DNA of 37,419 bases from assembly GCA_903932505.1 (NCBI GenBank), contig CAIZGN010000678.1:1-37419 (forward strand), given 5' to 3'. A program made the translations under genes and the position numbers. Positions 1,990 to 3,568 of the stretch are shown here, in pieces. Source of the stretch: Candidatus Hydrogenedentota bacterium. Its GTDB lineage: Bacteria; Hydrogenedentota; Hydrogenedentia; Hydrogenedentales; CAIZGN01. A model generated the notes under the pieces. The model was not told the DNA's origin. It did not search any database and worked only from the letters and a program-made list of their open reading frames with translations. Each line of letters opens with the position of its first letter. Positions within the stretch are counted from its first letter, which is position 1.

Positions 1990-3102
1990 TCAGGAAGTAG
2001 CCACGCCCAGCCCACGAGATTCAGTGGTCTTATCCTTGCCCACTTGACGCTCGGGCATGGGGGATACGGCGCAGTAGAAATGGTACAGCTTGCCATCTTT
2101 GGCGATGACAGAGGGCTTGTGGGCGTAGCGGGAATCAATACTGCCGCTCGCTCCGACGTCGATAAGGATCGCATCGGATTTGCGCCAGTGTATGAGGTCG
2201 TTGGAAAGTGCAACGGAGTCACGCGCACGCCCATCGCTGGAAAGGGTGTAAAAGAACATGGCCCACACACCGTCCACGCGAACCACACCGGGATCGCTGC
2301 AAAACACATCATCGAAACGCCCCTTTGCGCCCACAGGCAGCACTGGGTTTTCCCGGACGCGTTTCCAGGTCTTGAGGTCGGTGGAGGTCGCCATGCCAGT
2401 CTGCTCGACCCAAGGTTCGCTTTTGGTCTTGGCGTTGTAGAACATGTAGAAGACGCCTTCATGTTCCACGATGCACGATTTGTAAAGTCCGCCGCATTCC
2501 CAGGCACCAGCGTCCTGATCCGAAGCACGCAGGCAGGGCGGCTCAACGCTCCAGTGCCGCAGGTCGTCGCTCCAGCACAGACCGATGGCGGCCGGGCCGG
2601 TTTCGTAGCCGGGTTTGGGGTAGGCGTGGTAAGTGCCGAAAAAACGCCCGTTCACCTTTTTCAAGGTGCCCGATCCAAAGAGGTCGTTGTCCCGCACAAT
2701 CCAAGTCAGCGCGGCGTTGTATTCCGTGATGGAACCCGCCGATCCCCGATCAAGCACCAGCCCCTCCTTTATCCAATGGAACAGGTCATCCGATCGTGCA
2801 ATGCCAGTGCGATACCCCAGTCCGTCAAAACCCACATGCAGGAGGTAGTACTGGCCCTCATGGGAAAAGGCAAACGGACAGTCGATGGCAAGGGCATCAT
2901 ATGTCCCGGCTTGGTAAGAGGGCTCAAGGACGAGCGAAGGATGCTTGTGCGGTGTTCGCAGCCGCGCGAGAATCTCAGCATCCGTCTTAGAAAGCGGCAC
3001 TGTTTCCTCTGAAGGGGCAATACCCGCCCCCAGAAGAACGCCCGAACTCGCAGCGATAAATCCCCTGCGGGAGAGCTTCGGCTTGGATTGAGAAACGGTC
3101 AT
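1990..3102 (-). CDS. Tat-exported GH43/GH32-like five-bladed beta-propeller glycosidase
   Basis: The protein is 370 residues from the chosen ATG at 3102, preceded by GGAGA about 8 nt upstream; a longer frame to 3183 lacks this support. The N-terminus has a twin-arginine signal (SRRGFIAASSG) followed by a hydrophobic stretch, implying folded export. The body repeats the blade pattern of GH43/GH32/GH62-type propellers: YYLLHVGFD, RSDDLFHWIKEG, FFGTYHAYP, WSDDLRHWS, FYMFYNAKT, STDLKTWKRV, DPGVVRVDGVWAMFFY and HKPSVIAKDGKLYHFY. 'S.DL.HW' turns followed by an aromatic-rich strand are typical of these enzymes. Likely role: hydrolysis of plant or microbial oligosaccharides outside the cytoplasm. Substrate cannot be read from the sequence, and catalytic acids are not assigned with certainty. 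A strong terminator ends the upstream peptide gene just before this one, so it probably has its own promoter. Confidence 0.8.
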   Translation of the reverse strand: MTVSQSKPKLSRRGFIAASSGVLLGAGIAPSEETVPLSKTDAEILARLRTPHKHPSLVLEPSYQAGTYDALAIDCPFAFSHEGQYYLLHVGFDGLGYRTGIARSDDLFHWIKEGLVLDRGSAGSITEYNAALTWIVRDNDLFGSGTLKKVNGRFFGTYHAYPKPGYETGPAAIGLCWSDDLRHWSVEPPCLRASDQDAGAWECGGLYKSCIVEHEGVFYMFYNAKTKSEPWVEQTGMATSTDLKTWKRVRENPVLPVGAKGRFDDVFCSDPGVVRVDGVWAMFFYTLSSDGRARDSVALSNDLIHWRKSDAILIDVGASGSIDSRYAHKPSVIAKDGKLYHFYCAVSPMPERQVGKDKTTESRGLGVATS

Positions 3103-3141
3103 CTTCAGAGTCTCCACGAACCGCTTACCATCAGGCGTGCG

Positions 3142-3188
3142 AACAAAACCACCCTTGGCCGGAATCATGGCGAATCCGGCCAAGGGTG
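3142..3188 (-). terminator. Rho-independent terminator of the small peptide gene
   Basis: A perfect 14-bp inverted repeat lies at 3150-3163 and 3175-3188 with an 11-nt loop. Read on the minus strand, it is followed by GGTTTTGTT. It begins 20 nt past the stop of the 81-residue peptide gene. The strong stem plus T-rich tail make this a convincing intrinsic terminator. Confidence 0.8.
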
Positions 3189-3207
3189 ATCAGAGATTAA
3201 GCGCGTG

Positions 3208-3453
3208 TCAGTTGGCTTTGGTCTGCGCGCAGGAAATGCCGCAGGTAAACCAGCACGACTTGCTGTTGTACGGCACACCTAAGCCAATAAGCTGGGAATC
3301 ACTGCGGGCCACGATCGCCGCAGCTTCCTGAGGCAGCAAATTGGGATACTGCTTTAGTATCGCATCCATGGGCGGCGCGTTCTCTCCCTGCAGGGCCATT
3401 CGTTCCAACAGTACATCGTTTAGGAACTGAATAAGGTCTTTGGACATGCTCAT
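3208..3453 (-). CDS. Orphan 81-aa peptide with Cys-rich C-terminus; candidate RiPP precursor
   Basis: The start at 3453 is chosen because an AAGGAAGG ribosome site sits about 10 nt upstream. The next Met (two codons later) would be too far away, and the longer frame to 3543 has no such site. Residues 1-55 look like a charged, helix-forming leader without a signal peptide. Residues 56-81 are of different composition: a Gly/Pro turn (GLGVPYN), then S66-C67, T70-C71 and S74-C75. This is an (S/T)Cxx unit repeated three times, with spacing C-x3-C-x3-C and no other Cys in the protein. Such a leader/core split fits a ribosomally made, post-translationally modified peptide (thioether or other Cys crosslinks). 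No LanB/LanM, radical SAM, YcaO or peptidase-transporter gene lies in the window, so the call is inference. A small metal-binding protein is the alternative. Confidence 0.6.
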   Translation of the reverse strand: MSMSKDLIQFLNDVLLERMALQGENAPPMDAILKQYPNLLPQEAAAIVARSDSQLIGLGVPYNSKSCWFTCGISCAQTKAN

Positions 3454-3539
3454 CGTCAGCGTTCCTTCCTTGAATCCTAGTACGGGCCACCGCCCCTCCC
3501 CGTCTGAACTTGTGGGGCGGCGTAGTCCACCATGCCCAA

Positions 3540-3568
3540 ACAATACCTAATTTGGCGCAAAAGATCAA
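3540..3568 (-). promoter_or_regulatory. Candidate sigma-70 promoter of the small peptide gene
   Basis: On the minus strand, TTGATC (3568-3563) is followed after exactly 17 nt by TATTGT (3545-3540). Each hexamer matches the consensus at four of six positions with ideal spacing. It lies about 90 nt upstream of the peptide start. Together with the terminator after the gene, it suggests a single-gene transcript. Confidence 0.4.

Follow-up and report, generated by a model that had tools for sequence, protein, structure and literature searches.

A new peptide family in Hydrogenedentota, probably precursors of a class IV-type lanthipeptide, with the LanL-type enzyme on another contig in one genome assembly

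Class IV lanthipeptides are made by LanL, a single-chain enzyme that joins lyase, kinase and LanC domains and has a zinc-type cyclase. A small precursor is encoded beside the enzyme, as in the SflA and ALQxL precursor families, and consists of a leader and a C-terminus containing Cys, Ser and Thr. Class III enzymes (LanKC, for example ThurKC) share this domain order, but their cyclases lack the zinc ligands, a loss described for ThurKC (PMC10604976), and the leader protease of the ThurKC system is encoded outside the cluster (PMC10604976). Actinobacteria and Firmicutes hold most class III and IV enzymes, and 86% of class IV precursors had gone unannotated (PMC7268733). The search used in that study looks for precursors near the enzyme (PMC7268733) and would miss a precursor like the one described here, because only the vicinity of the enzyme is scanned. 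No paper devoted to lanthipeptides of Hydrogenedentota was found in our literature searches; two papers mention both the phylum and lanthipeptides, each only once or a few times. Here, an open reading frame (ORF) in a 37,419-nt stretch of a Candidatus Hydrogenedentota genome (contig CAIZGN010000678.1, hereafter the window) was compared with these systems. It very probably encodes the precursor (LanA) of a class IV-type lanthipeptide, on which a LanL-type enzyme from another contig of the same genome (C276) would act in trans.

The ORF, which had been picked out in a sequence-only reading of the window, encodes a peptide of 81 residues that begins with MSMSKDL and ends with CAQTKAN (Table 1). 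As that reading had it, the three cysteines (Cys67, Cys71 and Cys75) are spaced exactly four residues apart, and in the window copy they are preceded by S66, T70 and S74. When the peptide was shuffled 500,000 times, the pattern [ST]C..[ST]C..[ST]C arose once. In a search of 68 Hydrogenedentota genomes the family was present in five, namely the window's own genome (G000), G031, G032, G039 and G040, and the relatives were 71-78% identical to the window precursor with E-values below 1e-32. The start codon is supported by the MSMS sequence, which is conserved in all five homologues. Comparison of G039 and G040 revealed 28 synonymous changes and one nonsynonymous change, and therefore purifying selection acts on the leader and the core alike. 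Weak matches (E 0.01-0.1) in G002, G007, G037, G048, G051 and G052, together with a further match in G032, were set aside, as they appear to lie inside longer or stop-interrupted frames. Three additional DNA matches to CWFTCG (G017, G050 and G063) were read as unrelated frames. One genome-collection scan for relatives of the precursor returned the G031 homologue only. The precursor matched no NCBIfam or Pfam model, and the known class IV precursor models were silent even at E 10; its sole PHROGs match, to a kinase, was at chance level (E 0.1). The precursor family is new, and its predicted chemistry is of a known kind, that of class IV-type lanthipeptides.

Table 1. Features of the precursor locus (positions in the window)
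Feature	Position	Strand	Remark
lanA-like precursor ORF, 81 aa	3208..3453	-	homologues in 5 genomes, purifying selection
Leader, residues 1-59, predicted boundary	3277..3453	-	no Cys; helical in low-confidence model
Core VPYNSKSCWFTCGISCAQTKAN region, residues 60-81, predicted boundary	3211..3276	-	units CWFT CGIS CAQT
MALQ, residues 19-22	3388..3399	-	LELQ-like candidate synthetase-binding motif, putative
Ribosome-binding site AAGGAAGG	3464..3471	-	GGAAGG-type sites in all homologues
Promoter TTGATC-N17-TATTGT	3540..3568	-	same hexamers and spacing upstream of G031 and G032 homologues
Intrinsic-terminator-like hairpin 3' of stop codon	3147..3191	-	12-bp perfect GC-rich stem at 3152-3186

Alignment of the homologues showed that the Cys positions, whose loss would have spoken against a RiPP precursor, are kept. 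CWFTCG and S64 are invariant in all five sequences, as are S74, C75 and T78 in the four homologues with a complete C-terminus, and T70 wherever sequence exists. In the four full-length homologues a Ser or Thr stands at +3 of every Cys (C67-T70, C71-S74, C75-T78). Residue 66, in contrast, is Ser in the window copy and Ala in G032, so that C-x-x-(S/T) describes the core better than (S/T)C, and the earlier statement that Ser or Thr precedes each Cys holds for the window copy but not for the family. Since N63 and S66 of the window copy are replaced by T63 and A66 in G032, each peptide keeps at least three Ser/Thr residues (63 or 66, 64 and 70) before its Cys partners, and rings from Ser/Thr to a later Cys may form. 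The AlphaFold model of the precursor (low confidence, mean pLDDT 51) places helices at residues 6-22, 29-35, 41-48 and 52-57 of the leader, and the Cys region is modelled at very low confidence with no clear fold. The residues aligned to MALQ are LELQ in G032, FEIQ in G039 and G040, and LEIR in G031. This M/L/F-E/A-L/I-Q/R pattern, a match of four residues, faintly resembles the LELQL motif on which leader binding depends in class III ThurKC (PMC10604976).

In G032, G039 and G040 the next gene after the precursor, on the same strand and separated from it by roughly 60-125 bp, encodes a protein of 820-867 aa that combines a RamC_N (lyase) domain with a kinase and a LANC_like domain. Pfam assigned these domains in G032 and G040, where the Pkinase matches were below the Pfam cut-off; in G039 they were recognised through NCBIfam and an alignment. 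The adjacency was seen in three genomes, two of them of one genus; in G031 the contig ends truncate both genes. Next to the precursor-synthetase pair, neither a protease nor a transporter was recognised. A LanL-type enzyme was found in six of the 68 genomes, that is in all five precursor genomes and in G038, where the contig start cuts into the enzyme gene so that the region 5' of it is missing. The inclusion of the five precursor genomes within the six enzyme genomes has a hypergeometric probability of 5.8e-7 (n=68, ignoring relatedness). The RiPP precursor reading is supported by three genomes in which the homologue immediately precedes the gene of a class IV-type lanthionine synthetase. A precursor genome devoid of a RiPP enzyme, named beforehand as a refuting observation, was not encountered among the 68. 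A plain small metal-binding or structural protein, to which three evenly spaced cysteines in C-x3-C-x3-C arrangement would also be suited, is very improbable given this gene pair, the exceptionless co-occurrence among precursor genomes, the Ser/Thr conserved at each Cys+3 and the lack of a clear fold in the low-confidence model of the Cys region.

In the LanL loci of G038 and G031 a protein of the type encoded after the precursor in the window (GH43/GH32-like, 1990-3183) is encoded convergently after the enzyme (L031 1804-3429 and L032 581-2338). A sugar nucleotidyltransferase-like gene follows further on, and this neighbourhood is common to two families of the phylum.

The ribosome site and the 17-nt-spaced promoter proposed earlier are both in place, and two relatives carry the identical promoter. 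Within the 400 nt upstream of the precursor, TTGATC-N17-TATTGT is present a single time in each of G000, G031 and G032, which belong to three families of the phylum, and this exact string was obtained in 2 of 100,000 Markov simulations of one upstream region. The counterparts are TTGATC-N17-TATCGG in G039 and TTGACA-N17-TATGGG in G040. The hairpin behind the stop codon is present as well and is followed by a short T-run (GGTTTTG). It had been taken as the sign of a deliberate single-gene unit, but hairpins also lie between precursor and synthetase in G032, G039 and G040; thus the hairpin by itself does not mark such a unit. In these three genomes it may raise precursor over synthetase transcripts via partial termination. 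A literature search on lantibiotic attenuators yielded nothing useful.

All six Hydrogenedentota enzymes scored higher with the class IV model NF038150 than with the class III model NF038151 (397/251, 333/211, 384/252, 383/235, 236/142 and 71/21 bits). The curated cut-off of NF038150, 650 bits, was missed by a wide margin in all six (333-397 bits for the four three-domain enzymes, 384 for that of the window's genome); it is a curation threshold and not a biochemical feature, and with these scores the enzymes fall outside the named LanL equivalog family and are described as class IV-type. When aligned with plasmid-borne enzymes annotated as LanL or LanKC, they retain the lyase Lys/Arg, the kinase Lys/Asp/Asn/Asp and, in the cyclase, His and the WC/CHG positions. 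WCHG and CHG, at the zinc-ligand positions, are present in six of six, whereas the class III enzymes in the alignment lack the Cys ligands. In a small tree of few sequences the Hydrogenedentota enzymes grouped with LanL of Haematobacter and Kitasatospora, apart from LanKC. Among solved structures, the best match of the enzyme from the window's genome was 8car (deposited as a serine/threonine protein kinase), which we take to be a class IV enzyme, followed by class III LanKC entries. A class III-type product (labionin or a dehydrated peptide) in place of class IV lanthionines would agree with the identical lyase-kinase-cyclase architecture and with the LELQ-like leader motif, which was shown in class III (PMC10604976). 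It is nevertheless quite unlikely, as the class IV model scores higher for every enzyme and the zinc-ligand Cys/His are kept. The system differs from known class IV examples in its host, in its longer precursor (81 aa in the window versus 39 and 55 aa in the examples compared), in the missing NCBIfam/Pfam match of the precursor and the enzyme score below the LanL cut-off, and in the separation of the two genes in the window's genome. The enzyme and its class are identified by sequence, and the earlier RiPP guess is right in kind.

That the window holds no modifying enzyme, and that maturation depends on enzymes encoded elsewhere, had been stated before; the first point is confirmed and the second supported. 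The only LANC_like gene of the genome, encoding its one LanL-type enzyme, is on contig C276 (likely start 231, end 2651). A precursor is absent from the initial 230 bases of this contig, which consist of tandem repeats and an interspersed repeat that matches the genome at about 55 places; these repeats may be the cause of the contig break beside LanL. In the window, the precursor is followed by a GH43/GH32-like gene (1990-3183, minus strand). In the assembly of G000 the precursor and LanL are hence split, truly if the assembly is right, or else by an assembly error, as misassembly of a metagenome-assembled genome (MAG) is possible. The MAG consists of 740 contigs with a contamination estimate of 4.9%, and C276 begins in repeat sequence; all this would fit an assembly or binning artefact with the genes adjacent in the real genome, as in the relatives. 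About 3.2 kb of other sequence follow the precursor in the window, however, and the 230 bp before LanL are free of a precursor where the relatives have roughly 60-125 bp of intergenic sequence, and we therefore regard an artefact as rather unlikely. Still less likely is a stranded relic, a precursor that a rearrangement has parted from its synthetase and whose expression or modification has ceased. The different contigs and the interspersed repeat 5' of LanL could be read in this way, but ORF, start, ribosome site, promoter, hairpin and core are each intact and agree with those of the relatives, and the LanL of G000 is intact with its catalytic residues. If the split is true, precursor and synthetase need not be neighbours, and enzyme-centred mining tools would miss such cases. 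A literature search on precursors split from their synthetase found nothing useful.

The repeat region of C276 (L030 1-230) is composed of tandem units of ~55 bp followed by the interspersed element (about 131-188), some matches of which occur in closely spaced inverted pairs. The GH43/GH32-like protein of the window carries an apparent twin-arginine (SRRGF) signal and has no visible tie to lanthipeptides.

From the results obtained here, that is the family, the gene pairing in relatives, the co-occurrence, the domains, the catalytic and zinc-ligand residues and the conservation of promoter and hairpin, we infer that this enzyme modifies this precursor, that rings are formed and that the enzyme acts in trans. 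In the class IV-type route that we favour, the leader of ~59 residues would be bound by the single-chain lyase-kinase-cyclase enzyme, supplied in trans from C276. The kinase would phosphorylate core Ser/Thr residues and the lyase would eliminate the phosphate to give dehydro residues, onto which the zinc-type cyclase would add Cys67, Cys71 and Cys75, forming up to three thioether rings. The product would then be completed by a protease and an exporter encoded elsewhere. The core is strongly conserved, which tentatively points to a conserved role, for example in signalling or at the surface, more than to a fast-changing antibiotic. An uncultured phylum gains a concrete lanthipeptide family and its matched enzyme, which could be expressed in E. 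coli, and the small regular core (three Cys with Ser/Thr at +3) is a substrate for testing the ring direction of class IV enzymes.

A comparable arrangement was found on plasmid pOT1-4 of Haematobacter massiliensis, where a LanL-type enzyme has an upstream peptide with C-x-x-(S/T) cores (CDVTCTSSCGATCAQSC), as in Hydrogenedentota. The peptide, picked after the fact, contains the units CDVT, CTSS, CGAT, CAQS and CGYT twice. The core pattern, which had been called new, is so only in part: no family model matches it, but it recurs in this LanL-linked peptide. The Haematobacter enzyme joined the Hydrogenedentota enzymes with a support of 0.989 in the small tree, although the enzymes are only about 30% identical. 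Its peptide has two cores of five units versus one three-unit core in the window precursor. Full-length BLASTP between the two gave E 0.001 (a single comparison), and leader-only comparisons were mostly not significant. The cores are of the same form, the similarity of the leaders is marginal, and homology of the two peptides is no more than possible. A distinct class IV-type subfamily that is marked by tandem C-x-x-(S/T) cores, spans two or more phyla, serves a housekeeping or signalling function, as its strong core conservation would imply, and in G000 is produced in trans, is a speculative extension that we hold to be more doubtful than probable.

In the Haematobacter locus (L042 2354-5649) the peptide, with its two near-identical five-unit cores, is annotated only as hypothetical. 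On a plasmid of Salipiger sp. CCB-MM3 (L052 2888-5048), a 523-aa protein that has RamC_N and kinase parts but no LanC cyclase is encoded shortly downstream of a 91-aa ORF whose C-terminus is rich in Thr and contains Cys; this pair is possibly a dehydrating system without a cyclase.
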